Below are positions 8,839 through 49,164 of a DNA stretch of 49,610 nucleotides, piece by piece (within the stretch, counting starts at the first letter, position 1; each line of letters begins with the position of its first letter). A program made the position numbers and the translations under genes. Source of the stretch: Lachnospiraceae bacterium. Lineage in GTDB: Bacteria; Bacillota; Clostridia; Lachnospirales; Lachnospiraceae. The stretch lies in the NCBI GenBank assembly GCA_016280465.1, contig JAEEGT010000115.1:1-49610 (forward strand), given 5' to 3'. Under the pieces are notes generated by a model. That model saw nothing but the letters and a program-made list of their open reading frames with translations. It had not been told where the DNA came from and searched no databases.

Positions 8839-9999
8839 TTATTCAATAACGAGTTTCTTCCAGAAATCGGTAGGAACGATGGAAATGTAGGTCTTACCGG
8901 TGTTAAGGGTAATGGGCTCTCCGGTCTTTGCATTGGTGAACTCGGTAAGCTTGTCCATGCCTGCTTTCTTCCACTTGATAGGGATCGCATAACCGTTTGT
9001 GATGTAGTAGCCTTCACCGGAATCGATGGCCCCGTAGATCATGTATCCGTTCTCATCCTGCTCGATAAGCTTTGCGGAGTAGATGATCAGGTTCTTAAAG
9101 GACATTCTCTTTTCGGTCTCGGCCGCAGCATCGGTGTAAAGCTCGCCGTACTCGTAGTAGTCGTAGGTCTTTGTCTCTTTATTGTACTTCAGATTTGACT
9201 TATTGTGAGGGAAAGGCAACTCGATGTTCTCAGCCTTCTGAGCCTTTGCTTCATCCTCTAAGGAAAATTCCTTGTCGGAGAAAGTAAAATGCTCTCCCAT
9301 GTAGTATTTGTTATATTCTTCGCCGAAGCCTGCCTTCTTGATGCGGTTTACAAGTCCGACATAGGTCTTTCCCGCAAAGCCTTCGGTTCCCTTATGGTCT
9401 TCGGTGGTAACGTACTCCTCGTAGAAGTCTGCCTTACCTCTGTCGATACGGGCAAAGCCGCCGCTGAAGTGGTGCTTTGCGATATCATACTTAAGCCAGT
9501 CGTTGATCCAGTGAGGACCGCCGTCGTGGATAAGGATGGCATTGTACTCGGGGAAAAGAATGATATTGGTGGGACGTGCGCTGCGGACATTACCGATAAC
9601 GGGCACGTTCTTCCAGTCCTTGAAGATGCACATCAGACGGGTGATGTAATCGTTCTTGTAGGAATTGACAAGTTCATAAACGATATCGGCTTCGCTGGTT
9701 CCGTAATGAGGAAGGGCAACCTTTTCATTGTCCACCATAACGGCGATGGGGCGCTGATCTTTGATATCTTCGCTGATCCATTCGTTGGTAAGTTCGCTTC
9801 TGTACTGACCGTCGTGATTCTCTTCGGGTTCGGGCTCGGGTTCGGGCTCGGATACGGAAACAACGATGGGATCTTCCTTGATGGAAATAGAAGAAACCGT
9901 TGCTTCGGTAGTCTTGGAAGCTGATGATGCGGAGTCGCCGCAAGCAGTGATTGTGAGTAACAGGGCGGCAAGTACCGTCGATAAAATTTTCTTCTTCAT
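8839..9999 (-). CDS. DUF3048 (YerB-like) lipoprotein
   Basis: Lipobox LLTITACGD, EPEPEPEPEE linker, then RPIAVMVDNEKVALPHYGTSEADIVYE...GNVRSARP...HDGG, characteristic of DUF3048. Confidence 0.85.
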   Translation of the reverse strand: MKKKILSTVLAALLLTITACGDSASSASKTTEATVSSISIKEDPIVVSVSEPEPEPEPEENHDGQYRSELTNEWISEDIKDQRPIAVMVDNEKVALPHYGTSEADIVYELVNSYKNDYITRLMCIFKDWKNVPVIGNVRSARPTNIILFPEYNAILIHDGGPHWINDWLKYDIAKHHFSGGFARIDRGKADFYEEYVTTEDHKGTEGFAGKTYVGLVNRIKKAGFGEEYNKYYMGEHFTFSDKEFSLEDEAKAQKAENIELPFPHNKSNLKYNKETKTYDYYEYGELYTDAAAETEKRMSFKNLIIYSAKLIEQDENGYMIYGAIDSGEGYYITNGYAIPIKWKKAGMDKLTEFTNAKTGEPITLNTGKTYISIVPTDFWKKLVIE

Positions 10000-15657: not shown

Positions 15658-17199
15658 TTAGTCCTCCACTCCTCTGGTTGTAGGGTTAAATGCATCTCTC
15701 AGACCGTTACCGAAGAGGTTGAAACAGATCATGAGAAGTCCTAAGAACACGCTGGGCCAGAGCATGGCGTGAGGCGCCGTGGTAGCTGCTGCGTTACCCT
15801 GGGACAAAAGGGTACCGATGGTGGTTCCCGCAAAGGAACTCAGATCTACGATACCTAAGTATGTCATGGAAGTCTCGGAACTGATGACACCGGGAATTAC
15901 CAGCGCACAGCTTGTGATGATGGTACCGATGGCGTTGGGGAAGATATGCTTGAACATAAGTCTTCTGTCGGATGCGCCAAGGGTCCTTGCAGCCATGACA
16001 AATTCCTGACTCTTAAAACGATAGAACTGTTTACGGGTAAGTGCTGCCATACCGAGCCAGCCCACCATTACGTAAGCAAAGAGGAAGCTGGGAACAACAC
16101 CCACCTTTCTTGCCAGGTGATACTGGAACAAAGTGGTAACAACGATGAAAGGTACACCGTAAAGGATATCTGCGATACGATCGAGGATCATATCAACTCT
16201 TCCGCCGTAGTAACCCTGTACGGAACCGTAAATGGCACCGATGGTCAGGTTGATGGCAGATACGATGACAGCAAATACAAGGGAAAATCTTGCACCGATA
16301 CCGATGGCACCGAAAAGATCCATTCCCATGCTGTTGGTACCGAACACATACTGAGGCTTGTGTCCGAAAATATAGCGATAGTAATTGTAGTAATCGATAC
16401 GGCACTGAACGGAACCGGACTTAGCCATGGAATAAATGTAGCTTCCGTCATCACCTTCAATTCTTAAGGAGTTGTATTCCGCACCTGCGATCTCCGCACG
16501 CTTTGAGTATACAGGCTGAAGGTTTCCGTCCTTGTCAAGGATCGCCGATCCTTTGGCATCTACCTTGTACCAGATGTTGGCATTGTCCGTGATACCGGAA
16601 ATATCAGCAGGCTCTACATAAGGGTAGATGATCTGAATTCCGTGCTCATTCTGCCAATCCTGGATCTTCTTGAATTCATCGTAAGAAAATACACGATATA
16701 CGACACCGAGTGCGTAATAAGCATTGACCTTGATATCGTAAGTATATCTCTTGACCATCTGGCCACGGTATTTAACCTCTGTCTCATGGGTTCCGATGGT
16801 CTTGATAACGGGGTTTCTTCCGGTCTCTTCCGCAATACCGCGCCAGAAGTTCATGGCGGTATCATTCTGTGAATCAAAGGTCTTTGCTCCGCTCAGAGCT
16901 TCGATACCAAGATCCGCAGCCCACTCAAGGAAGGGCGGATAGTTAACATAGAGTTTATCCGTGTCCTTAATGCCGTAGGGAGAAAGCAAAGGAGAGATAA
17001 ACGAAAACAGGATCAGGAACAAGAGTATCCAGGCTGCCACAACGGAAGATTTATTTTTTGAAAATCTGATCATGGCGTCCGCAAAGAAACTTCTGGCTTT
17101 GGTCTGAAGCTCAATGTCATGTATTTTGTCGGAATCCTGTACAAATGCAAATTTTTCTGCCGGAATGTGTTCATATTCCGCGTTGTTAAAGTTTTCCAT
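15658..17199 (-). CDS. oppC: Oligopeptide-type ABC permease (OppC-like) with enlarged first extracytoplasmic loop
   Basis: TM1, then long hydrophilic region, then FGTNSMGMDLFGAIGIGARFSL and the EAA-like loop (FVMAARTLGASDRRLMFKHIFPNA). Confidence 0.92.
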   Translation of the reverse strand: MENFNNAEYEHIPAEKFAFVQDSDKIHDIELQTKARSFFADAMIRFSKNKSSVVAAWILLFLILFSFISPLLSPYGIKDTDKLYVNYPPFLEWAADLGIEALSGAKTFDSQNDTAMNFWRGIAEETGRNPVIKTIGTHETEVKYRGQMVKRYTYDIKVNAYYALGVVYRVFSYDEFKKIQDWQNEHGIQIIYPYVEPADISGITDNANIWYKVDAKGSAILDKDGNLQPVYSKRAEIAGAEYNSLRIEGDDGSYIYSMAKSGSVQCRIDYYNYYRYIFGHKPQYVFGTNSMGMDLFGAIGIGARFSLVFAVIVSAINLTIGAIYGSVQGYYGGRVDMILDRIADILYGVPFIVVTTLFQYHLARKVGVVPSFLFAYVMVGWLGMAALTRKQFYRFKSQEFVMAARTLGASDRRLMFKHIFPNAIGTIITSCALVIPGVISSETSMTYLGIVDLSSFAGTTIGTLLSQGNAAATTAPHAMLWPSVFLGLLMICFNLFGNGLRDAFNPTTRGVED

Positions 17200-18355: not shown

Positions 18356-20959
18356 TTAGTAATTAAGAGTACCACCCTGGGAAGCTACATAATCCTTCCA
18401 CTCGGTCTCATCGTAGTTGTACTTAGCATAGCGAATACCACCACGGGAAAGAACGGGGTTGTAATCTTCTACTACGTAGTAAACCTGCTGAGAAAGAAGT
18501 GACATAGCACCGTTGTTCATCATAGGGATGTAGTCGTAGGTGCTGAGGATCTCTCCCTCGAATTTAGCAAGGATCTCAAGTCTGGTCTCTACGGGAGCGA
18601 TGCCGTAACCGAAGTTGTACTTAACGCCGTTTACGTCGATCTCGCCCTGAAGAGCATCGGACCACTGCTTAAGGTTAAGGGTAACATCCTTGCCGTCGAT
18701 CTTAACGGTCATGTTATGAGCGGTAGCATCGAACCACTTGCCGTCATAAGCCTGGCCGGGATTTACGTATACGGAGGTGGTGCTGAAGGGATCCATTGCG
18801 GAACCTGACCAACCTGCAAGTACTACGTCGGCAACACCGTTTCTGATGTTGTTGGACCAGTCGTTACCAACAGGTGCGGACTTAACGATCTGTACCTTGC
18901 CTTCAAATCCGGTTCCTACGGTTGTCTCAGCGATCTTCTCGTTGAGGTAATCGATCATCTTGGTCATGAAGTCGGAATCGGAAGAGATGGAGTAAGTAAG
19001 TGTAACGGTCTGATCGGACTTGCCGTCGCCGTCAGCATCGGTAATGTAGTTCTTTTCAAGAGCTTCAGTATAAGCTTCCTGATAAAGCTTCTTAGCGGTC
19101 TCGGGATCGAAACCGGTGATGGAAGCAACCGCATCCTTAAGGGAAGCGTACTTGCTGGTATCTACAGAGTAGAAATCGCAAAGAGCCTGCATAGCCTGAT
19201 CGGAATCACGGTAGTATGCACAGGTCTCGGGATCGTAAATAAAGGTGTTACCGATAAGACCAAAGCCGGCTACACGAGCAGGGCTTACGGTTGCGCAGAA
19301 GAGGTCTCTGTCGAAGGTAACGGCGATCGCACGACGGAAGGTGTTAAGAAGTGCGGTCTGGATATCTGTGGTAGCTGTATCGAAATCGTCAGCTGCTTCT
19401 CTTTCGTTGATAACCTTCTCATATCCGTTAAGGATGATGAAGTAAATGGTCTCAGCGGGAGTAGCGTGAGCGAATTCGGAGTTTCTGTACTGATCGAAGT
19501 CTTCAGCCTGGAGGCCGTAACCCATGATCTCACCTGCAAGGAACATCTGCTTGCGGGTTGCAGCTTCTGCAACGACCTGAGTATCAACTTCGGTGGACTG
19601 GTACATAGGATAGGTCTTACCATCGGTAGGATCTACGTAAATGTGGTTGCCGTCGTTCCAGCCGAACCACTTGTCGTTCTGAACGAAGTGCATGGACTTG
19701 TCGAGCTGATAGTCGCTTACCTTGTAAGGACCATAAGAACGGGAAGTCTCAACGTTGGTGTTGTAGGTACTGGACCATACGGTACCGGAAGCAGTCTCGG
19801 TCTCCTTGAGGCATGCATCGTAAAGATTGGGCTCTACAAGCCAGTTATTGGAAAGAGCGTATATCTTTAAGTAGAAACCGTCAAAGGAGTTGTTTAATAC
19901 ATAAGTGATCTCGTTGTCGCCGGACTTGAAGAGACCAACGTTGGCGAAATCATAGTTGTCTTCATAGTAGTGAGCCTGAACGAAGTAGTTGAATGCATCT
20001 GCTTCGGTCTCGCCCCATGCTTCATTGCCTGTGATAACAGGAAGGAAGAGCTGGTAGTTTTCATCGGTAAGAGGAACAAGTCCGTTCTCATCGATAAGTG
20101 CGGAAAGCTGATCCCAGGTGGATACATCGAAGTACTGTGCGCCGTATGCATCTACATAGTCCTTAAGGGTATCGCCGCCGGTCCACTCAAGAGCATAGCC
20201 AAGTCCGATGTACATCTTGTCTCCGTTGGGAGCTGTGTACTGTCCATCATCGCCCTTTACAAGGTCTGTGATGGCGTACTTGTTGTTCTTGCCGTTATCG
20301 GAGTAGCTTGTGGTACCCTGGAAGTAGTAGTTGGCTGCGTTAACGATTGCATAGTTGCCTTCGTAGTAGTCAACTGCACGGTAGTTTAAAAGCTTGGGAT
20401 CCATGAGTCTCTTGAAGGACTCAACGAATGTATCAGCGGTGATCTTTGTTCCGTCATCGAAGCAAAGGTCATCACGAAGCTGAATTGCCCATGCTACCTT
20501 CTCAGCGGTATCGGAAAGACCGAATTCGGGATGCTCGGTTCTAACCTTAGCGGTAACATCAACGGGATCGGCTGCAGCCATCTCGGGAACGATTACGTAA
20601 CCGGTGAAAGGCTCCTTGCCGTCAATGGGATGATTTGCATCATTGAAGATAAGTCTGTAAAGACTGGAAACTGTTTCGACATCATCGATGGGATAAGCAT
20701 CGTCGGTTGTCTGATAGGTGTGAGGGTTCCAGTTTGTTGCAAGAGTGGAAACCGTATCCTTCCAGATGAAGCTTCCTTCAAACTTTTCAACCTCAACCTG
20801 CTTTTCTTCTACACTGCTTGTCGAAGTCTCTGTACTGGAAGCAGATGCAGGTGTGCTGGTGCTGCTAACGCTGGTCTTCTTGTCGCCGCAAGCGGAAAGA
20901 GAAGCTACGCAAAGAACGGTGGCAAGTGCCAAAGCAACAGCTTTGTTGAACTTTTTCAT
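18356..20959 (-). CDS. oppA: Oversized oligopeptide-type ABC substrate-binding lipoprotein (OppA-like)
   Basis: Start MKKFNKAVALALATVLCVASLSACGDKK at 20959 with AGGAGG RBS; SBP family 5 features (WAIQLRDDLCFDDGTKITADTFVESFKRLMDP). About 867 aa. Confidence 0.9.
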   Translation of the reverse strand: MKKFNKAVALALATVLCVASLSACGDKKTSVSSTSTPASASSTETSTSSVEEKQVEVEKFEGSFIWKDTVSTLATNWNPHTYQTTDDAYPIDDVETVSSLYRLIFNDANHPIDGKEPFTGYVIVPEMAAADPVDVTAKVRTEHPEFGLSDTAEKVAWAIQLRDDLCFDDGTKITADTFVESFKRLMDPKLLNYRAVDYYEGNYAIVNAANYYFQGTTSYSDNGKNNKYAITDLVKGDDGQYTAPNGDKMYIGLGYALEWTGGDTLKDYVDAYGAQYFDVSTWDQLSALIDENGLVPLTDENYQLFLPVITGNEAWGETEADAFNYFVQAHYYEDNYDFANVGLFKSGDNEITYVLNNSFDGFYLKIYALSNNWLVEPNLYDACLKETETASGTVWSSTYNTNVETSRSYGPYKVSDYQLDKSMHFVQNDKWFGWNDGNHIYVDPTDGKTYPMYQSTEVDTQVVAEAATRKQMFLAGEIMGYGLQAEDFDQYRNSEFAHATPAETIYFIILNGYEKVINEREAADDFDTATTDIQTALLNTFRRAIAVTFDRDLFCATVSPARVAGFGLIGNTFIYDPETCAYYRDSDQAMQALCDFYSVDTSKYASLKDAVASITGFDPETAKKLYQEAYTEALEKNYITDADGDGKSDQTVTLTYSISSDSDFMTKMIDYLNEKIAETTVGTGFEGKVQIVKSAPVGNDWSNNIRNGVADVVLAGWSGSAMDPFSTTSVYVNPGQAYDGKWFDATAHNMTVKIDGKDVTLNLKQWSDALQGEIDVNGVKYNFGYGIAPVETRLEILAKFEGEILSTYDYIPMMNNGAMSLLSQQVYYVVEDYNPVLSRGGIRYAKYNYDETEWKDYVASQGGTLNY

Positions 20960-21041
20960 GTTCTGTCCTCCTTTTGTGTTTTTAACACGTTGGTGCGATA
21001 AAGTGTGGGTATAATGTCCGCCACTCACGCACGATATTATT

Positions 21042-21069
21042 ATTGTATACAAAAATCCCACTCTGTCAA
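21042..21069 (-). promoter_or_regulatory. Putative promoter for the opp-like operon (TTGACA-N16-TACAAT)
   Basis: Reverse complements of 21064-21069 and 21042-21047; overlaps the 3' end of the GPH gene. Confidence 0.5.
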
Positions 21070-22556
21070 GACAAAATATCAATAGTATTATTTTCGTACG
21101 ATTCTTTAAGTTTTGCTTCTTTTTTCACCTGTAAAGCCTCTACATTCTTCCTGGAAAGCGGGTAAAAAACAAACAAAATCAGCGCCATCAGGCCAAAGAG
21201 GATTGCCGGGATCAGAGTTGCAAGATCGTACATCTTTTTTAAGTTATCGAGAGTCTGTACCGCACCCTTTTCGTATTTGTAGTTCATGCCGAGAAGTGCG
21301 CCGTTAACACAGATGGCTGCAATGACCTGGCCCAGTTTACGGAAGAAATTAAAGAAGGAATAGGCGGTTCCGTCGTCCCTGGAACCTGTGGTGACTTCGA
21401 TATCGTCAATGGCATCCGTGGCCATGGCCCATAGCTGGAGCACCATGGTGGTAAGTCCCAGGCCGCTTACAAAGCAAAGGGCCAGAAAGATATACATAAG
21501 CTTCGAAGGCTCCATTCCACGCAGGAAGAACAAAACCAGGTTTGCAAGGGCCGCAAGGGATACTCCCACGGCGCACACTTCCTTTTTACCAAGCTTTCTT
21601 GCAAGCTTCGGCATAAAGAACATGAGCACGATCATGGGTGAATAGGTGCAGGCCTGGCTTGCAAGGTTCATCCAGTTGGCATTGAAGTAATCGTTAAATA
21701 AGTAAAGATAAAAACTCTGGGTAAACATCTGTCCTGCAAGGAGCAGCATGGCGGTTAAGCTTATGGCGATGAAAGCCTTGTTTGTAAAGAGGTTCTTTAA
21801 AGCCTTCTTTGCGGCTCCCTTTTCTTTTTCCGCAGGTTTACCGATGACTCTTTCCTTATTAAGAGCGAAGGTTAAAAGCAAAAGAAGGAATGAGCAGAAT
21901 GCCATGGCGGCAACGCCCAGTATCACGGGTTCGTACTGCATGTCCGTGATGATCTTTCCGTTTTCTCCGTATACGAAATTGCCGGCGGCATCCACTCTCT
22001 TTTTATAGGCAAAAGAAGCAAGTACGAACACCGGCACGCTGCCGAGGGCCGCACCGATGGCACGGTATACCGACAACTTGTTTCGCTCGGTAACGTCGGT
22101 AGTCACAACAGAAGCCAAAGAGCCGTATGGAATCTGGAGCACCGTGTAGCACATGCCCCAAAGTATGTAAGTGACCGTTGCGTAGATACAGGTGGCGGTG
22201 TAGTTCTGTCCGCCGCCGATACCGGGGAATCTAAAGAACATAAGGATCGTAAGCACGCAGAGGGGTGCTGCCACATAAAGGAACCACTGGCGGTATCTGC
22301 CGAATCTGGTTGGCTTTACCCGGTCGCAGATACGCCCCATGATGGGATCGTTCACCGCATCCCAGACTCTGGCGCCTATGAACATGAACATGATGAACAT
22401 GGGACTTATGTTGAAGACATCGGTATAGTACTTTTGAAGAATAGAAGTGACCAGACTGAATACAAGACATCCGGCTGCGTCTCCCATGGCGTAGCCTATG
22501 TAATCTTTGGCCTTAAGGCCGCTGGTGCGGGCAATGTAACTGCTGCTGTTATCCAT
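21066..22556 (-). CDS. GPH-family (MelB-like) sugar:cation symporter
   Basis: 12-TM protein with GYAMGDAAGCLVFSLVTSILQKYYTDVF and RVWDAVNDPIMGRICDR; start MDNSSS at 22556 behind GGGAGG. Confidence 0.85.
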   Translation of the reverse strand: MDNSSSYIARTSGLKAKDYIGYAMGDAAGCLVFSLVTSILQKYYTDVFNISPMFIMFMFIGARVWDAVNDPIMGRICDRVKPTRFGRYRQWFLYVAAPLCVLTILMFFRFPGIGGGQNYTATCIYATVTYILWGMCYTVLQIPYGSLASVVTTDVTERNKLSVYRAIGAALGSVPVFVLASFAYKKRVDAAGNFVYGENGKIITDMQYEPVILGVAAMAFCSFLLLLLTFALNKERVIGKPAEKEKGAAKKALKNLFTNKAFIAISLTAMLLLAGQMFTQSFYLYLFNDYFNANWMNLASQACTYSPMIVLMFFMPKLARKLGKKEVCAVGVSLAALANLVLFFLRGMEPSKLMYIFLALCFVSGLGLTTMVLQLWAMATDAIDDIEVTTGSRDDGTAYSFFNFFRKLGQVIAAICVNGALLGMNYKYEKGAVQTLDNLKKMYDLATLIPAILFGLMALILFVFYPLSRKNVEALQVKKEAKLKESYENNTIDILS

Positions 22557-22763: not shown

Positions 22764-23624
22764 ATGAAAGAAAAAGCAAAAAAAGAACTGTTCAGGATAT
22801 TTATCATCATCATTGCTTCGGCGCTACTCGCCATCAACACCAAGAGTTTCGTACGTACCGCGGGACTGTACCCCGGCGGAGCAATGGGTCTTACCATTCT
22901 TTTCCAGGGCATTTTCGAACGTTTCCTTAATATAAGCGTTCCCTATACCCCCATAAACATCATTCTTAACGCCATTCCCGTTTATATCGGTTTCCGTTTT
23001 ATAGGAAAAAAGTTTACCTGGCATTCGCTGCTGGTAATTTTCCTTACGGGCATCTTTACCGATATAATCCCTCCCATCATCATCACCTACGACACCCTGC
23101 TCATCTCCATCTTCGGCGGTGTGATCAACGGTTTTTCAATCTACATGTGCTTAAGTGTTGACTGTACCTCCGGCGGAACGGACTTTATCTCCATCTACCT
23201 TTCCCAGAAAAAGGGCATCGACACCTGGAACATAATCCTTGCCATCAACGCAGTGATCCTTACCGCAGCAGGTTTCCTCTTCGGCTGGGACAAGGCCCTT
23301 TACTCCATCATCTTCCAGTACGCCTCTACCGAAGTGCTGCACATCTTCTATAAGAGATATCAAAAGCAGACCATGCTCATCATAACGGACAAGCCCCAGC
23401 AGATCATCGACGGTATCTACGATGTAGCTCACCACGGCGCCACCATCCTTAAGGGTGAGGGCGGATACACCCACGAAGACAGATCCATTATCTATTCCGT
23501 TGTTTCGAGAGATGAAGTAAAGAAGATAATCGAGATAGTCAAAGAAACCGATGACACGGCTTTCGTGAATACCTTCCGGACCAACGAATTTTCCGGAAAT
23601 TTCTATCACAGACCAAATTCATAG
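22764..23624 (+). CDS. YitT-family membrane protein (DUF161 plus DUF2179)
   Basis: TKSFVRTAGLYPGGAMGLTILFQGI, SVDCTSGGTDFISIYLSQKKG, C-terminal GATILKGEGGYTHEDRSIIYSVVSRDEV. Confidence 0.92.
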   Translation: MKEKAKKELFRIFIIIIASALLAINTKSFVRTAGLYPGGAMGLTILFQGIFERFLNISVPYTPINIILNAIPVYIGFRFIGKKFTWHSLLVIFLTGIFTDIIPPIIITYDTLLISIFGGVINGFSIYMCLSVDCTSGGTDFISIYLSQKKGIDTWNIILAINAVILTAAGFLFGWDKALYSIIFQYASTEVLHIFYKRYQKQTMLIITDKPQQIIDGIYDVAHHGATILKGEGGYTHEDRSIIYSVVSRDEVKKIIEIVKETDDTAFVNTFRTNEFSGNFYHRPNS

Positions 23625-23884: not shown

Positions 23885-23910
23885 AAGGCAGGTCTTTGAT
23901 GACCTGCCTT
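23885..23910 (-). terminator. Rho-independent terminator of the GT8-PlsC operon
   Basis: AAGGCAGGTC-atcaaa-GACCTGCCTTTTTC on the minus strand. Confidence 0.85.
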
Positions 23911-23914
23911 AAGT

Positions 23915-25720
23915 TTATTCAGCCTTTTCTTTCACCTCATCACAAAGATAGGTAAGGGGCACTCCATAGGTCTTTTCGTAAGTCTCTTTCCAGAAAGCGT
24001 AGTTTTTCTTCATCATGTAATCGATGTTTTCGTTTCTGTTTCGATTACGCGAAGGGAAAATGGGTGCTCCCACATGAACCGTATAGGCCTGTACGGGATA
24101 ACCGTCACCGTCCACCGTATCCGTATCCTCCATGGTGATAAAACAGGGAACCACAGGCACCATGTTATCCGCCGCAAAGATAAAGCCGCCACGCTTTAAG
24201 GGCTTGGGCTTACGGTAATTCCACCACATGCTCTGCTCGGGATAGATAAGGATGTAATGCCCCTTCTGAAGTATGGTCTTCACCGCCATCATGAGTTTCA
24301 TCATGGTACGCTTGTTGGAGCTTAAAGGAAGGGTATTGCAGTTACGCATAAGGAATCCGTAGAATCCGGGAAATGCGGTGTAGTTCGCTTCGCTTATGAT
24401 GCGGAAGAGTTTCTTTCTCTTGTGAGCGGAATCGTAGGTCAGCTGCATGGCAAAGCTGTCAAAAGCATTGAAATGGTTGCAGGTGATGATGGCGCCGCAG
24501 TCTAAGTTCTTTAAGTTCTCGATACCCTTTATCTCTTTGACACAGAACTGTTTCTTTGCAATAAGAAAATCCACGAACCAGTGAGCGATACGGAAAGCAT
24601 AGATGGCGCGAAGCCGGCTGTTTACGCTCCTTCTTAAGTAGTCCACGTCGCAGGGCTTAAGCTCTTTGGCGGGGGGATCGTCCTCCACGTCCTTGTCAAA
24701 GATACCTGCTTTTTCCAGTTTTTCTATGCGCTTCAACACTTCGGCTCTGGTAAGCTTGATCTCCTCACCGTCACCGTACATGTTCCTGTAATTCATGCGG
24801 TTACTGATCTCGGAAAGGGCCAGTTCCTGAAGCTTGTCGCCGCAGATGCGATCCTTTTCTTTGTCCTCGGGAGAATAATTCTCAAGGACCTGTTCGATCT
24901 CGCCGTAAAACTCGGTTTTCTTCGCATACTCCCAGAAGAAGGAACCCATGCGGCAATCCCTGTAATGCCAGGGCTTAAGGGCAAGATTGTAATGCACGAG
25001 TTTTGCTTTGTCATCGTCGCAGGGAAGGTTACCGGGCATCTGCACGTTCCATCTTGGATCCAGCCAGAGAACACGGTCCTTGCAGAGGATATTAAGATAA
25101 TCCTGATCCTGAGCCACCACAAAGGTGTAGTTGTTAAGGAGTTTGGTAAACTGCTTGAGCATGTGCTCTCTTCTGAACAGTTCGCAGTTTATGAGCACCA
25201 CTCCGGCGTTGAAATAGGCGCCGCGGGAAATTCCCAGGACCTTCTCCGCATAGTCCGCAAACACATCGGTCTGGGCAACGATCTGGTCCCTGATACCGCC
25301 TATAAGGTTCTTGCCAATCTCGTAGCGGTACAGGTTCACGATGTCCTCGCGGATTATGGTGTCGCTGTCGATATAAAGCACCTTTTTGTACTGAGGGAAC
25401 ATATCCGCGATAAACAGACGGTAATAGGTGGTGGCGGAATAATAATCCCTAAGGCAGATCTTCTTTGCGATCTTTGCCATTTCCTCACTCACATCCACAA
25501 AAACAAGTCTGCAGCTTTGAGTTTCCATCCTCTTAAGCTGTGCCTGATGAGCCGCGGAAATATCCGTGTGGAGTATGTGTATCTTGTATCTGTATCTGTC
25601 CGAGGTATTGTCGATAAGAGACTTTAAGGACACGGACAAAAAGGGTACATATCCGTCATCGGCGGCAAAGAACACGGGAATGACCCTGCTTCTTTTTAAA
25701 AGTAATATGTTTGCTTTCAT
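23915..25720 (-). CDS. Bifunctional fusion: GT8 glycosyltransferase plus C-terminal PlsC-type acyltransferase
   Basis: N-terminal half: VIPVFFAADDGYVPFLSVSLKSL, DSD motif VLYIDSDTIIREDI, YFNAGVVLINCELFR. C-terminal half: ITCNHFNAFDSFAMQL (HX4D) and YILIYPEQSMW. Confidence 0.88.
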   Translation of the reverse strand: MKANILLLKRSRVIPVFFAADDGYVPFLSVSLKSLIDNTSDRYRYKIHILHTDISAAHQAQLKRMETQSCRLVFVDVSEEMAKIAKKICLRDYYSATTYYRLFIADMFPQYKKVLYIDSDTIIREDIVNLYRYEIGKNLIGGIRDQIVAQTDVFADYAEKVLGISRGAYFNAGVVLINCELFRREHMLKQFTKLLNNYTFVVAQDQDYLNILCKDRVLWLDPRWNVQMPGNLPCDDDKAKLVHYNLALKPWHYRDCRMGSFFWEYAKKTEFYGEIEQVLENYSPEDKEKDRICGDKLQELALSEISNRMNYRNMYGDGEEIKLTRAEVLKRIEKLEKAGIFDKDVEDDPPAKELKPCDVDYLRRSVNSRLRAIYAFRIAHWFVDFLIAKKQFCVKEIKGIENLKNLDCGAIITCNHFNAFDSFAMQLTYDSAHKRKKLFRIISEANYTAFPGFYGFLMRNCNTLPLSSNKRTMMKLMMAVKTILQKGHYILIYPEQSMWWNYRKPKPLKRGGFIFAADNMVPVVPCFITMEDTDTVDGDGYPVQAYTVHVGAPIFPSRNRNRNENIDYMMKKNYAFWKETYEKTYGVPLTYLCDEVKEKAE

Positions 25721-26553
25721 AGATCGCTCCTCATTTCCTCAAATTTCTTTCTCAAATAGATGTATTCATACAGTACATCATCGAACTGATCGTACTTAAA
25801 AACCTTGTGGACCTTGGTGACATGCCACTGCTTGATATTGTCGGTATGGGGGTAAGGCAGGTAAAACAGGCGCTTGGAAAAATGCCTTATGACCGTATGG
25901 GGATGCAGGAATTTCTGGTCGTTAAAGCGCTGAGGCAGCATCTTCTTTCGGGTGGTGCTCCTGTAAATGGCGCTTTGATCCGCAAAGACCAGTTTCTTTG
26001 TCTTTATAAGTTCTCTTGCTTTTTCAAAGAGATGAGTGCTGCGGCACTCGGGCATATTAAAAAGCAAAACTCCCGCATTGATGTAATTGGGATTTAACAG
26101 GTACTTTCCGTAATGATCCCTGGCGGCGGCATACTCATAGCCGGTCACATCGATGTCATATAAAAGTTCCGGTTCCCTGTTAAAAAGAATGTCCGCATCA
26201 AGATAAAGGATCTTGTCGGGGATCCCGGGGATCATGTCGATAAAGAGCCTTAGCAGAGTGTAGGGGGAACAATAACACTGCTCGTTGGGACAGCTTGCGA
26301 ATTCGCGGTTGTAGATGTCCGTAACATCAAGCTTTATGATCCGGTTCCCGGGATTGTACTGCTTTGCGATGCCCTCAAGGAAACTTATCTTTTCATCACT
26401 GATGGGTACATATTGGGGCTTAATGTGGGACACGTCCATGGTAAGGACATAGGCCGTTACGGGCTCTTTAGACTTTGTACGCTTATATACCGACAGAAGA
26501 CAGGTCATTATACCGTCAAAAACCCCATCATTTCCCGAAAATAAAAGATTCAT
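25717..26553 (-). CDS. GT8-family glycosyltransferase
   Basis: LLFSGNDGVFDGIMTCLLSVYKR, DAD motif ILYLDADILFNREPE, YINAGVLLFNMPECR; 4-bp overlaps with both neighbours. Confidence 0.88.
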   Translation of the reverse strand: MNLLFSGNDGVFDGIMTCLLSVYKRTKSKEPVTAYVLTMDVSHIKPQYVPISDEKISFLEGIAKQYNPGNRIIKLDVTDIYNREFASCPNEQCYCSPYTLLRLFIDMIPGIPDKILYLDADILFNREPELLYDIDVTGYEYAAARDHYGKYLLNPNYINAGVLLFNMPECRSTHLFEKARELIKTKKLVFADQSAIYRSTTRKKMLPQRFNDQKFLHPHTVIRHFSKRLFYLPYPHTDNIKQWHVTKVHKVFKYDQFDDVLYEYIYLRKKFEEMRSDL

Positions 26554-27404
26554 GCATCATTCTCCGTTGTTGACGTTTGTGTAGCCTCAGAAGGGGATTT
26601 TCCACCCTCCGGGCTTCCGTTTTCGTTGCGCTTTACGTATTTTACCATAACCACGTTGTTGTGGACCGTGTTCTTTTTCATAGCTTCATAGACACGGTTC
26701 CGAAGTTCCGTTTTCTGCTCGGCTCTCGGAAGTGACTCATCCGCAAAGAAAGGGCCCTCCACATAGGTCACGATCTTCGGAGTTTTGGATCCGCGGCGCT
26801 TTTGGTAGGTATTTGTAAAGCAGAAAACAGGCTTATGATATTTGATCGGGTATCTGAAGGAAGCATCCCGAAAGTTTCTTATGTCTGTGTAATAGGGCCA
26901 GATATGGGCTTCCGGGTAGATTCCCACGCAGGATTTTCCCATTATGGCACGCTTGACCGCTTCCTCAAAGTTTTTAAGTGCTTCTTTGCCGTCGGGTAAG
27001 GGAATGGCTCCCAGACTTGGATTTATTGGACCCAGGATGGGCATGGACACGTTGTTGGCGTGAGCAATCATGTAGACATCCTTGGGGTAGGTTATCATGG
27101 AGGGAATAAAAGCATCCGCAAAGGCGTTGGTGTGGTTTCCGTAGAGGAAATACCCCGTGTTTTTGTAAGGTTTAAGGACCTTGCGGTTTACGATCCTGTG
27201 ATGATATTTGATCTTTAGAGCGATATATCCGATGGGCCTTGCAAGAAGGTAATAAAAAAACAGCCGCCCGATCTTTCTTTTCAAACCGCCGTCATAATCA
27301 TAGGTTTCGTCTATTTTACGAGGAGTGATCTTCGCAGTGGAAAACTCATCCTCAAGCTCATTATCATAGTAAATTACAGGAGTTTCACAAGACGTAGTTT
27401 TCAT
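26550..27404 (-). CDS. PlsC-like acyltransferase with HX5D motif
   Basis: GYFLYGNHTNAFADAFIPSM and CVGIYPEAHIWPY; ATG at 27404 preferred over GTG at 27440. Confidence 0.8.
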   Translation of the reverse strand: MKTTSCETPVIYYDNELEDEFSTAKITPRKIDETYDYDGGLKRKIGRLFFYYLLARPIGYIALKIKYHHRIVNRKVLKPYKNTGYFLYGNHTNAFADAFIPSMITYPKDVYMIAHANNVSMPILGPINPSLGAIPLPDGKEALKNFEEAVKRAIMGKSCVGIYPEAHIWPYYTDIRNFRDASFRYPIKYHKPVFCFTNTYQKRRGSKTPKIVTYVEGPFFADESLPRAEQKTELRNRVYEAMKKNTVHNNVVMVKYVKRNENGSPEGGKSPSEATQTSTTENDA

Positions 27405-27458
27405 AACTACTTCAGTATAGCAGATTTTTCCCCGGAGCACAAGTGTTACTTCCGGGAC

Positions 27459-27488
27459 GAAAAAAGGACCGGATTTAACTCCGGTCCC
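27459..27488 (-). terminator. Terminator of the 27510 lipoprotein gene
   Basis: GGACCGGA-gttaaa-TCCGGTCC followed by TTTTTTC on the minus strand. Confidence 0.85.
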
Positions 27489-27509: not shown

Positions 27510-28946
27510 TTATTCGACAGTCAGAAGATGCTTTAAGCCATCACTCATAGTAACGAAAAATACAGCTTTACCGTCAAGATCCGAATACTCCAAATAATCT
27601 TGTTGAGCAACGCTTGCGCCCAGAGCATCAAATTCTTCGCTTACCTGTTCAAATTTCTCATTGATCAGATGTGCCTTCCCGCCATTAATCACAACTGCAT
27701 AACCATTGCAGAAGTCAGATGCATCATCAAACCATTCCGTTTCGGACATATCCTCATTGTCAATATAACCCCACTTTCCATCCATGGATCGTACAAGGAC
27801 ATACTTTCTATATCCAAACGGTCCTACATAATAGTAAGTCTCTTCAGTTGCCCAGTTTTTAGTTTTTAGGTCAAATATCCGGTAAAAAGGGTTGTTGTTA
27901 TCGTCTTTTCCAAATATATTCTTGGCTTTACCATCCGTTACTGCACATATAGTGCTTCCGTTGTCTGCCGTAAAATAACCCATTAAAACAGAGTCCGTAA
28001 GAGTCCACTCTATAAATTCGCCGGTTTTGACATTATAGAAACCTTTAGATCCCCTCTTTAAAGTATCATCCCTTAGGAACGCATCCGCCCAACCTTCGTC
28101 ATTAGGCGTAGCTAAAGTTGAAAACCTAAGTGCTTTTCCATCATGCGCCAGAGGAGTTCTTTTCACAGTTCCATCCTGTTCGGCAATTTTTAATTCAGCT
28201 CTTCGCCCAATACCTTCTTTGTCAATAAATGCTTTAACATCTGAAGCATCGTCCACCCAGTCTAAGGCCTCTTTATCTTTCCAAAACTTATTATTTAAAA
28301 ATATAATATAGTCATAGGATATATAAGGCTGAGTTTCTGCGAAAATGTTGCCATATCTTATCATTCCGTCTGAGCCAAAGGTTGCAAGCATGTAGGGGTA
28401 ATCAGAATCGCCCTTATCTATAACAGCAATTCCGTCACGATAATTGACAAACTTCCAACCGGAATCTCCAATATCCTGATACTGTGTTAATGTGTTCCCA
28501 TCAATATAATATATTGAAGACGAGATTATTTTTCCGTCTTTCTTCACATTACCTATAAACCTTCCGTCCTGACACTGTAAAGTAACACTGCTAAATTCGA
28601 CATTCGCAAAAGCCCGTTCACCGGTCGAAGAGTTAATGATCACATATTTATCATCGGTGTCCACCATAAGATAATCTTTGTTTAGATACCACATTTTTTT
28701 ATATCCCCAATCGGATATATTTAAAGTCTTGTATGGATTGGTCTCTTCCTCCGGTTCCGCTTCTGCTGCACTCTGAGCTGCCTCTGCAGACTCATCAATT
28801 TGTTCTTCGTCTGCCTTTGCGGTTTCCTGAGTCTGGTCGTTTTCCTGAATCTGAGTATTTCCCTGATCAGTTGATGACCCGCATCCGGCAAGTTGTCCAA
28901 ATGCAAGCACTCCGGAAAGCATAAGTATCACTAATCTTTTTTTCAT
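27510..28946 (-). CDS. Lipoprotein with WG-repeat-like C-terminal region
   Basis: Lipobox AFGQLAGCGSS, Gln/Glu-rich linker, DGKWGYIDNEDMSETEWFDDASDFCNGYAVV. Confidence 0.65.
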   Translation of the reverse strand: MKKRLVILMLSGVLAFGQLAGCGSSTDQGNTQIQENDQTQETAKADEEQIDESAEAAQSAAEAEPEEETNPYKTLNISDWGYKKMWYLNKDYLMVDTDDKYVIINSSTGERAFANVEFSSVTLQCQDGRFIGNVKKDGKIISSSIYYIDGNTLTQYQDIGDSGWKFVNYRDGIAVIDKGDSDYPYMLATFGSDGMIRYGNIFAETQPYISYDYIIFLNNKFWKDKEALDWVDDASDVKAFIDKEGIGRRAELKIAEQDGTVKRTPLAHDGKALRFSTLATPNDEGWADAFLRDDTLKRGSKGFYNVKTGEFIEWTLTDSVLMGYFTADNGSTICAVTDGKAKNIFGKDDNNNPFYRIFDLKTKNWATEETYYYVGPFGYRKYVLVRSMDGKWGYIDNEDMSETEWFDDASDFCNGYAVVINGGKAHLINEKFEQVSEEFDALGASVAQQDYLEYSDLDGKAVFFVTMSDGLKHLLTVE

Positions 28947-46653: not shown

Positions 46654-47328
46654 TCATTTTCTTCGTTCCAAAAGCCGTACCACCAAAGCGGATACAAGCC
46701 CCACCGGAACAGCGGCAATGACATCGAGAGCGGAATGCTGTTTTACAAAGGTCGTGGAAGCCGCAATGGCTACAGCTGCAATGACAGTGAAGATCTTAAA
46801 GCCGAGGGATGCATATCTGTCCCTGCACCAGGTATATGCCACAGCCATGGAAAAAGCAACGTGCATGGAAGGAAACACACCTGTAGGAGTATCAAAGTTA
46901 TAGATTATATCAAGGATCCATGTGAAGAAATTCTCATGTGCAAAGCTTTCCGGTCTGAGGTTCTGAACACTGGGGAACAGGATGATGGTCACCACACCGA
47001 TTATCTGGCAGGTGATTATGAATCTTTGGACCCTTCTGAAACATTCTTTGTCAAAAAGGAGGTAAAAGAGCAGGGTCCCAAAAACGTAAAGATACCAGAA
47101 CACGTATATAAGGACAAATTCTTCCCTGAAGGGAATGATGTCATCCAGTTTTGAATGTATCACATGGCACTTTTCCACGGGGATCAGGTTCTCCGTGATA
47201 AAGTACATTGAAAAGTAAAACACCCATCCGAGTATCAACAAAAGATGGGAGTATTTGGGATCTGTCAAATTGGTAAGGCGAAGGCCTCTGTAATCTACGA
47301 GGGTCCTTCGCTCTTTTCTTTCTTTCAC
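46654..47328 (-). CDS. PAP2-family membrane phosphatase/phosphotransferase
   Basis: Multi-TM, TGVFPSMHVAFSMAVAYTW and KQHSALDVIAAVPVG. Confidence 0.82.
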   Translation of the reverse strand: MKERKERRTLVDYRGLRLTNLTDPKYSHLLLILGWVFYFSMYFITENLIPVEKCHVIHSKLDDIIPFREEFVLIYVFWYLYVFGTLLFYLLFDKECFRRVQRFIITCQIIGVVTIILFPSVQNLRPESFAHENFFTWILDIIYNFDTPTGVFPSMHVAFSMAVAYTWCRDRYASLGFKIFTVIAAVAIAASTTFVKQHSALDVIAAVPVGLVSALVVRLLERRK

Positions 47329-48146
47329 TGTAAATCTTTCTCCTTGTTGTCATCAGAGGCTGTGCCGGAAGTCAGATCGACTATAGGCAGGCTCTTTGGA
47401 TAGTGCTTTTTGGAAACATTGGGGTAGGGTACCACCGTATGCTCCGGAAGGGCCGCAGCCAGGGCTGTGATCTCGTCCATAAGGCATTTGGCTATACGCT
47501 CGCGTTCTTCTTCGGTAGGAGCTTCTGAATCGAATTTTATCGGTTTTCCAAACTCTATGCGCTTGAGCAAAGGCGCCAGATACATGGGCACAAAGGCAAG
47601 ATCCTTGCCCGTTTTCTTTCGGTACATCTTCGCGATATCGATAAACCTGTTTTGGAACATGTGAACGATATTGTTGTACTCATCGTAACACTCGGGAAAA
47701 ATGACCACGCGGACACCCTTTGAGAGCTCCTCGGTGGTCTCCTTGAAGGTCTTGACTATTCGCATGTCATGATAAACAGGGATCGTGTGTGCCGAATTGA
47801 AGACTATGTCAGCAATAGGCGGGATGATATAACTTAAGATTTTAAAGAACCAGCGGATCCAAAGAGGTTTTTTTGACCAAAAATCCCGATAAGCATAAGC
47901 CGAAACGGTCTTGGGGTCCATCATATCCCCTATGCACCAGGTGGCGTGCTTGCCGGGTATATACAGTTCTCCCGCAATGGGGCCATACATATGGCTGTGA
48001 TTCCCCACGATCACGCAGGGGCCGTCCTCCGGCAGGTTTTCTTCTCCGTATATTTTATATTTGGGCGAAAACATCCAGACCGAACGTCGAATAAATCGAT
48101 ATCCGGGCTTCAGTTTTTTATCATCAAGGTGTGCAAATCTGTTCAT
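47325..48146 (-). CDS. PlsC-like acyltransferase lacking the HX4D aspartate
   Basis: CVIVGNHSHMYGPIAGELYIPGKHATW and VVIFPECYDEYNN; overlaps the PAP2 start by 4 bp. Confidence 0.78.
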   Translation of the reverse strand: MNRFAHLDDKKLKPGYRFIRRSVWMFSPKYKIYGEENLPEDGPCVIVGNHSHMYGPIAGELYIPGKHATWCIGDMMDPKTVSAYAYRDFWSKKPLWIRWFFKILSYIIPPIADIVFNSAHTIPVYHDMRIVKTFKETTEELSKGVRVVIFPECYDEYNNIVHMFQNRFIDIAKMYRKKTGKDLAFVPMYLAPLLKRIEFGKPIKFDSEAPTEEERERIAKCLMDEITALAAALPEHTVVPYPNVSKKHYPKSLPIVDLTSGTASDDNKEKDLQ

Positions 48147-48162
48147 GCCGATCTAAACTGCC

Positions 48163-49053
48163 TTACTCCTTATTAACCTTGGGCTCGCTGTACTCACAGT
48201 CCTTGTCAAATCTGACGGTCTCCGGGGGTACCTCCAGGTCTTCGGGGTGGTTGAGGAAATACTTCATATCGGCAAAAAACTTGGCATAATATGCTCCGGC
48301 GCAAACTCTTTCATCCACAACGATACCTATGGGAAGAAAACGCTTCATGGAGGTTCCTTCTTCGTTGGTCACCGCTACCTGTTCCGTGGTGCCGAGGCTG
48401 AAGAACATGCCCACATTACCGAAATTGTAAATGTGATGATTAACGTGATGAAGGCCTATGGATGCTGTATTGGTGATATATGCACCCACATAGAAGGGCA
48501 GCTCCTCAATAAGGGTTTTCGGGCACATATCGTGCTTGTCAAGAAACTTTACCAGCGCAACCAGGAAAGAAGGCAGACCCGGGATCTTGAATACAGCCGC
48601 AGCAAGCTTATTTGACACATTGGAAGGGGTATCCTTACGCTCTGCCTCCACAGCCGCATTAAAGCGGTCACGGACGTCAAAAAGGGTATCGTAGGGATCG
48701 AACTTTAACTTAACAACAGCCTCGCCCTCGGAGTAGTCACCGGGGTTTTTAAGTATGGTAAAAGCACAGCTTAAGTTGTTACGGGCATAGAACCTTCTGT
48801 TCATGATAAATCTGTTAACTTCGGGGTTCTTGCTGACGGAACGTACATAGGCTGCTATAAAAAGCTGCATATGTGTAATGGTTTCGTTGCGTTCCTGTCT
48901 CAACTTACGTATGTATTTATTCATCCTGTCCATGTCCACCCTGTGCTGCAGGAAGACCTGGGCATCACAGCGCATGGGCATAAGATAGGGAGTTATCTGA
49001 ACAATGGGGTCTACACCTTTGATTCTGCGTCCGTCGGTTCTCTTTCCAAACAT
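48163..49053 (-). CDS. Stand-alone 2-oxoacid dehydrogenase E2 acyltransferase-domain-like protein, catalytic motif degenerate
   Basis: RCDAQVFLQHRVDMDRMNKYIRKLR..., FGNVGMFFSLG, PIGIVVDERVCAGAYYAKFFADMKYFLNHPEDL; start MFGKRTDGRR at 49053 behind GGAGG; no lipoyl domain. Confidence 0.75.
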   Translation of the reverse strand: MFGKRTDGRRIKGVDPIVQITPYLMPMRCDAQVFLQHRVDMDRMNKYIRKLRQERNETITHMQLFIAAYVRSVSKNPEVNRFIMNRRFYARNNLSCAFTILKNPGDYSEGEAVVKLKFDPYDTLFDVRDRFNAAVEAERKDTPSNVSNKLAAAVFKIPGLPSFLVALVKFLDKHDMCPKTLIEELPFYVGAYITNTASIGLHHVNHHIYNFGNVGMFFSLGTTEQVAVTNEEGTSMKRFLPIGIVVDERVCAGAYYAKFFADMKYFLNHPEDLEVPPETVRFDKDCEYSEPKVNKE

Positions 49054-49164
49054 AGTTGCCTCCAATAATAGACACTCACTATTGAATGATACCAAAATAT
49101 GGTAGTTTATACAAGTGTAAAAAGAGGGGGTAAGCTAGCCAGCACCATACAGATAAGTAAAAAA

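Follow-up and report, generated by a model that had tools for sequence, protein, structure and literature searches.

Two GT8 glycosyltransferases and two PlsC-like acyltransferases form a conserved module of gut Clostridia and horA plasmids that probably builds an acylated membrane glycolipid

Genes and domains of the locus

The window analyzed here is a stretch of 49,610 nucleotides from a Lachnospiraceae bacterium (assembly GCA_016280465.1, contig JAEEGT010000115.1). Three open reading frames on its minus strand, running from 27404 to 23915, encode four enzyme domains: an acyltransferase (AT1), a GT8 glycosyltransferase (GT8-A), and a single protein in which a second GT8 domain (GT8-B) is fused to a second acyltransferase (AT2). 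We use the module names AT1, GT8-A, GT8-B and AT2 throughout and refer to the four together as the quartet. AT1 and GT8-A overlap by 4 bp at 26550-26553, as do GT8-A and the fusion gene at 25717-25720, and no gene lies between the three frames; horA in particular is absent from between GT8-A and AT1. These coordinates confirm the arrangement proposed in the first-pass annotation, and its description of the products as an HX5D PlsC-like acyltransferase, a GT8 enzyme and a GT8-PlsC fusion is borne out by Pfam matches and sequence motifs (Table 1). The gene preceding AT1 (27510-28946) has a lipoprotein-like start and no Pfam match, and a YitT-family gene (22764-23624) is convergent with the fusion gene. 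Because terminator-like hairpins stand on both sides of the triad, the three genes are probably a unit of their own between these two neighbors.

Table 1. Features of the acyltransferase and glycosyltransferase locus (positions in the window)
Feature	Position	Strand	Basis or remark
Terminator-like hairpin upstream of AT1	27465..27488	-	9-bp stem followed by a T-run; ends the 27510-28946 gene
AT1, HX5D LPLAT-fold acyltransferase	26550..27404	-	284 aa from ATG; PF01553; AlphaFold model
AT1 catalytic motif NHTNAFAD, residues 90-97	27114..27137	-	Homologue alignment
GT8-A glycosyltransferase, 278 aa	25717..26553	-	PF01501, 54.7 bits (cut-off 24.3)
GT8-A DxD motif, Asp119 and Asp121	26191..26199	-	At least 95% conserved in 35 homologues
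GT8-B+AT2 fusion, 601 aa	23915..25720	-	PF01501 and PF01553 in one ORF
GT8-B domain, residues ~1-310	24791..25720	-	PF01501 and structural matches
GT8-B DxD motif, Asp118 and Asp120	25361..25369	-	At least 95% conserved in 44 homologues
AT2 PlsC-like acyltransferase domain, residues ~317-597	23930..24772	-	PF01553; separate gene in other loci
AT2 catalytic HX4D, His416 and Asp421	24458..24475	-	HX4(D/E) in homologues
Terminator-like hairpin after the fusion gene	23885..23910	both strands match	10-bp stem

AT1, for which an alternative GTG start at 27440 is possible, belongs to the LPLAT family by its Pfam match (PF01553, 29.1 bits, cut-off 23). The N, H, T and D of its N-H-T-x4-D motif are invariant in 19 aligned homologues, and HX5D is kept in all 34 homologues examined. 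Sequence searches of AT1 against the PDB returned chance matches or none. A Foldseek search with its AlphaFold model (pLDDT 84) ranked Thermotoga PlsC (5kym) first, followed by PatA, an enzyme that puts an acyl group on a mannose of phosphatidylinositol mannosides, and LpxM; the match to 5kym scored 1.4e-5 with a probability of 1.00, but the TM scores were only 0.48/0.56. Against the 1-acylglycerol-3-phosphate acyltransferase (AGPAT) model TIGR00530, AT1 scored 18.7 bits and AT2 34.7 bits, far below the cut-off of 102.95, and AT1 carries HX5D; neither domain is therefore filed as PlsC proper. Two stronger PF01553 genes elsewhere in the genome (102-108 bits) likely represent its true, housekeeping PlsC set. 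Replacement of HX4D by HX5D is known in SalA of marine roseobacters (PMC8319176) and in fungal GPATs (PMC4207751) and is thus an accepted variation; these proteins share with AT1 an LPLAT domain bearing HX5D, but appear to differ from it in sequence family and substrate.

Profile matches of GT8-A in the PDB were LgtC and WbbM. In the fusion protein, residues 16-253 match PF01501 at 176.8 bits (cut-off 24.3) and residues 397-528 match PF01553 at 49.9 bits (cut-off 23), so that its C-terminal half is, as first supposed, a member of the LPLAT acyltransferase family. The GT8 part of the fusion model resembles WbbM, LgtC and GlyE. The model as a whole has a pLDDT of 88.4 and a pTM of 0.58, the latter making the mutual placement of the GT8-B and AT2 domains uncertain. 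Hydropathy analysis revealed no transmembrane-like segment in AT1, GT8-A or the fusion, which fits cytosolic or monotopic enzymes.

Distribution and evolution

Ten loci were recovered when a genome collection was scanned with the fusion protein; they belong to Lachnospiraceae, to other Clostridia and to Spirochaetales/Treponema. GT8-B and AT2 form one protein in loci L006-L010 and separate neighboring genes in L011, L012, L014 and L015; AT2 is a gene of its own in L011, L012, L079, L085 and others. The Spirochaetales/Treponema loci (L010, L012) carry the module in its GT8-B+AT2 form. The fusion profile was found in 26 of the 391 Clostridia genomes surveyed and AT1, at a looser threshold, in 41 of them; within the family of the window, 23 of 397 genomes (20 of 334 genera) matched the fusion profile. 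All four modules are present in 29 of 44 distinct GT8-B loci. GT8-B and AT2 are encoded as one protein in 18 of the 44, and in the loci lacking a fusion the two domains are usually adjoining genes. The recurrence of both fused and split versions led us to reject an assembly artefact, a concern raised at the outset for the frame beginning at 23915, which we regard as genuine.

The module is genuine and conserved, and its functions are coherent. Across loci, the pairwise identities of each protein correlate with those of the other three (Spearman 0.49-0.92), with 0 of 999 permutations reaching the observed value in Mantel tests of every pair; the four proteins therefore diverge together. Trees of GT8-B and AT2 call for several changes between the fused and split states, at least two of them forced by well-supported branches. 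Gene order is either AT1-GT8A-GT8B-AT2 or GT8A-GT8B-AT2-AT1, and intergenic gaps range from about -14 to +102 bp, the larger negative values reflecting the choice of start site. Overlaps of the 4-bp ATGA type are ordinary in operons, and given this variation in order and spacing, those of the window carry no special message. The triad, for which a survey across Clostridia had been suggested, does recur, but its 4-bp overlaps are not conserved. The proposal that strict coupling implies a fixed-ratio complex is not supported, as loci differ in their overlaps, in the order of the genes and in whether GT8-B and AT2 are fused or split.

The quartet is free-standing and its flanks are mostly not conserved: in the only other genome of the same genus with a match, none of the flanking ORFs matches those of the window. 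Such patchy occurrence suggests transfer of the module as a unit, the alternative being loss in most lineages. Carriage by phages was rejected as an explanation, since no viral contig matching the fusion was found. One unannotated 'Bacteriophage sp.' record carries a relative of AT1.

Recurrent neighboring genes

Six loci contain only GT8-B and AT2, and in each of these a CrtO-family protein (PF18927) directly adjoins the pair; PF18927 itself was tested on one of these proteins, and the others were assigned through BLAST clustering and a search of the genomes. CrtO occurred in 6/6 genomes with this short form versus 1/27 of the others (Fisher p 6e-6). The genome of the window contains no CrtO, and homologues elsewhere in the order do not lie beside GT8 genes. 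The established role of CrtO, in staphyloxanthin synthesis, is to attach an acyl group to the glucose carried by a glycosylated carotenoid acid. A carotenoid pathway, which the CrtO neighbors brought to mind, was rejected because squalene/phytoene synthase (PF00494) was found in 0 of 26 genomes with the module or AT1, while control genomes were positive. Judging from this co-occurrence, CrtO seems to replace the half of the module formed by AT1 and GT8-A, acting on a non-carotenoid lipid.

In five loci AT1 adjoins a GT4 glycosyltransferase instead, and AT1 is therefore a module that goes with a glycosyltransferase. The NCBIfam matches of these GT4 proteins include MGlcDAG synthase, IagA/BgsA and GlcN-PG synthase, all high-ranking and all far below the curated cut-offs. 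A flippase-like LPG_synthase_TM protein adjoins the module in only two loci. At L085, a gap of 12 bp separates AT2 from a 1549-aa BcrAD_BadFG/DUF2229 protein encoded on the same strand. We take this architecture to be of the plasmalogen-synthase class; paralogues of the protein are frequent in Clostridia, whether or not the module is present. Among the loci read, genes for a polymerase or for polymer export were not recurrent neighbors of the module, which argues against the acylated surface glycan that had been offered as an alternative product.

Relatives on horA plasmids of beer spoilers

Among 72,556 plasmid records, full-length relatives of GT8-A occurred in Roseburia sp. 831b and on 17 lactic acid bacterial plasmids, almost all of which are annotated as coming from beer or breweries; AT1 was found in the same set of plasmids. 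All four modules were matched on pPECL-8 and pL21533-5 (HMM E values 1e-87 to 1e-111). On pPECL-8 of Pediococcus claussenii the genes run GT8-A, a divergent 583-aa ABC transporter, AT1, GT8-B and AT2, an order repeated in P. damnosus, P. inopinatus, L. brevis TMW 1.2108 and F. lindneri. From published work on the horA-flanking gene set, of which pPECL-8 is an example, we identify the transporter as HorA, the hop-efflux protein (PMC4394401, PMC3765258).

These genes are already visible in the literature on beer spoilage. Two reports give the horA-flanking genes no annotation beyond acyltransferase or glycosyltransferase in 'phospholipid or cell wall biosynthesis' (PMC4394401, PMC3765258). According to the second, phospholipid or cell wall functions account for four of the five genes that surround horA, and each of these was transcribed in beer at more than 3 times the level of horA, an association that partly reflects plasmid copy number (PMC3765258). 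The genes common to L. brevis beer spoilers include, in a third report, two 'LPS' glycosyltransferases and two acyltransferases, which we read as the quartet (PMC6533708). The available text of these three papers proposes no product for the horA-flanking genes. In the open-licence literature, to which the older papers of Suzuki and co-workers on the horA flanks do not belong, we found no description of the pathway, its product or a link to gut Clostridia. The idea of an undescribed glycolipid pathway was accordingly right in part: the glycolipid is backed by CrtO, the AT1-GT4 pairing, the PlsC/PatA-like fold, the stand-alone quartet and co-location with horA, and the pathway, product and clostridial link appear to be undescribed, but the gene set itself was known around horA.

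Proposed pathway and alternative explanations

The quartet probably builds a fatty-acid-decorated glycolipid of the cell membrane. Our main reading, to which we assign a probability of roughly 0.6, is that it constitutes a self-contained module making an acylated glycolipid at the cytoplasmic membrane face in two rounds of glycosylation and acylation. In the first round GT8-B would use a nucleotide sugar to place a hexose on a membrane lipid, and AT2, part of the same polypeptide in the window, would attach a fatty acyl group; in the second, another sugar would come from GT8-A and another acyl group from AT1. The result would be a multi-acylated diglycosyl lipid, and with it altered barrier properties of the envelope. 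GT8-B is paired here with AT2, and GT8-A with AT1, because some loci hold GT8-B and AT2 only, because these two are fused, and because AT1 accompanies another glycosyltransferase elsewhere. The four domains with their intact catalytic motifs, their co-conservation, modular pairing and distribution are direct observations. We infer the lipid acceptor, the order of steps, the identity of the sugars and where the acyl groups sit; for the barrier role, the only indication is an association with the beer plasmids.

As support for a glycolipid we counted the conserved catalytic residues in two GT8 and two LPLAT enzymes, the PlsC/PatA/LpxM-like fold of AT1, and the CrtO, GT4 and horA associations. 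Several points count against it. GT8 enzymes act on many acceptors, among them LPS cores, proteins and glycogenin, and no solved relative recovered here is known to attach a sugar straight to the core of a membrane lipid; the usual substrates of LPLAT enzymes are glycerol-phosphates, not sugars. Matches of the GT4 proteins are far below cut-off, CrtO homologues elsewhere in the order lie away from GT8 genes, and the beer transcriptome is an association.

The same enzymes might instead modify the glycolipid anchor of lipoteichoic acid (LTA) or another lipoglycan, the GT8s extending and the acyltransferases acylating a pre-existing anchor. This would suit the presence of the LTA-anchor family IagA/BgsA among the sub-threshold matches of the AT1-paired GT4 proteins, and the filing of the genes under phospholipid or cell wall in the beer-spoiler literature (PMC3765258). 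We nevertheless consider it unlikely, since we found no LTA or polymer gene repeatedly next to the module. Moreover, the GT8-B+AT2 form is also found in Spirochaetales/Treponema (L010, L012), which are not known to have LTA. A surface polysaccharide or glycoprotein pathway, with the GT8s assembling a glycan for O-acylation by the LPLATs, draws on the fact that the nearest characterized bacterial GT8 structures to GT8-B (WbbM, LgtC, GlyE) are LPS and adhesin glycosyltransferases. It is quite unlikely in our judgment: LPLAT enzymes are lipid-facing, a recurring partner of the short form is a glycosyl-lipid acyltransferase, and no polymerase or export system recurs, LPG_synthase_TM being confined to its two loci.

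Since both acyltransferases belong to the family of PlsC, the locus could also be a phospholipid remodelling operon of housekeeping glycerolipid enzymes with incidental GT8s. The genome, however, has two better PF01553 genes, AT1 and AT2 fall far short of the AGPAT cut-off, the GT8s and acyltransferases co-vary, and GT8-B is fused to AT2, so this is very improbable. More improbable still is a glycolipid made from an ether or plasmalogen lipid and coupled to a PlsA-like reductase; the putative PlsA-like protein adjoining AT2 at L085 would fit, but it is a single locus and its paralogues occur irrespective of the module.

Our reading of an acylated diglycosyl lipid connects genes long noted around horA in beer-spoiling bacteria with an orphan gene set from gut Clostridia, and supplies a concrete candidate product for both. 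If it is correct, efflux would not be the sole basis of hop tolerance, a membrane glycolipid being the other, and functions could be given to a clade of HX5D acyltransferases and to the recurrent fusion of GT8 with an acyltransferase. We offer more tentatively the wider possibility of a modular two-round 'glycosylate then acylate' route, distinct from those of phosphatidylinositol mannosides and staphyloxanthin, whose multi-acylated diglycosyl lipid would toughen the barrier. The route would have spread among gut Clostridia, Spirochaetales and lactic acid bacteria; in the last of these it might form an unrecognized passive half of horA-type hop resistance.

Comparison with known systems

The mycobacterial phosphatidylinositol mannoside pathway (PimA, PatA, PimB') likewise glycosylates a membrane lipid and acylates it with an LPLAT-fold enzyme, and the AT1 model resembles PatA. 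That pathway, however, uses GT4 enzymes and an inositol lipid acceptor, whereas the window has GT8 enzymes and thus lacks the combination of PimA/PimB' GT4s with PatA; beyond the fold, no sequence kinship with the window enzymes was found. In the staphyloxanthin pathway (CrtQ, CrtO) a sugar is placed on a lipid and then acylated, and the CrtO family accompanies the GT8-B+AT2 short form. It differs in having a carotenoid synthase and CrtQ: the synthase was found in none of the 26 genomes examined, a GT8 takes the place of CrtQ, and the genome of the window has no CrtO. In the horA gene set of beer spoilers, GT8-B and AT2 are separate and a divergent horA lies between GT8-A and AT1, in contrast to the fusion and the lack of an adjacent horA in the window; as in the window, all four modules are present there as homologues.

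Other genes of the window

A second cluster of lipid type, judging by its appearance, lies at window 46654-49095, in which the genes for a PAP2 phosphatase and an additional PlsC-like acyltransferase overlap by 4 bp and are adjoined by a lone protein with a 2-oxoacid-dehydrogenase-type acyltransferase domain. Elsewhere in the window, the OppC-like permease carries an unusual insertion of ~230 residues between its two domains, and the neighbouring solute-binding protein is of unusual length.

Features of the window and of homologous loci (L) in other genomes
Feature	Location	Strand	Details
PAP2 phosphatase	window 46654-47328		
PlsC-like acyltransferase	window 47325-48146		PF01553, 30.5 bits
2-oxoacid-dehydrogenase-type acyltransferase domain protein	window 48163-49095		
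OppC-like permease	window 15658-17199		513 aa; OppC_N 37-89, BPD_transp_1 323-509
Solute-binding protein	window 18356-21082		908 aa
LPG_synthase_TM protein, flippase-like	L078 9813-10826		directly upstream of GT8-A
LPG_synthase_TM protein, flippase-like	L079 9575-10603		directly upstream of GT8-A
BcrAD_BadFG/DUF2229 protein	L085 2882-7531	-	1549 aa; plasmalogen-synthase architecture

Homologous loci in other genomes

The LPG_synthase_TM proteins, encoded at the same position in two related genomes, could transport the proposed acylated glycolipid across the membrane. At L085, the large BcrAD_BadFG/DUF2229 protein is encoded 12 bp downstream of AT2, and two further paralogues are present in that genome. 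The AT2 gene of a Eubacterium MAG (L014) is cut by an in-frame TGA at about 9434-9439 in an otherwise intact reading frame, and the same split occurs at a second locus, L126.

A relative of AT1 with 58% identity to the window protein is encoded at 174-932 of GenBank MT836196.1. This human faecal entry, deposited as 'Bacteriophage sp.' and lacking annotation, may be a mislabelled bacterial contig. At five further loci (L091-L095), AT1 homologues that have the HX5D motif are paired with a GT4 in place of the GT8s, and this pair probably represents a separate two-gene acyl-glycosyl system.
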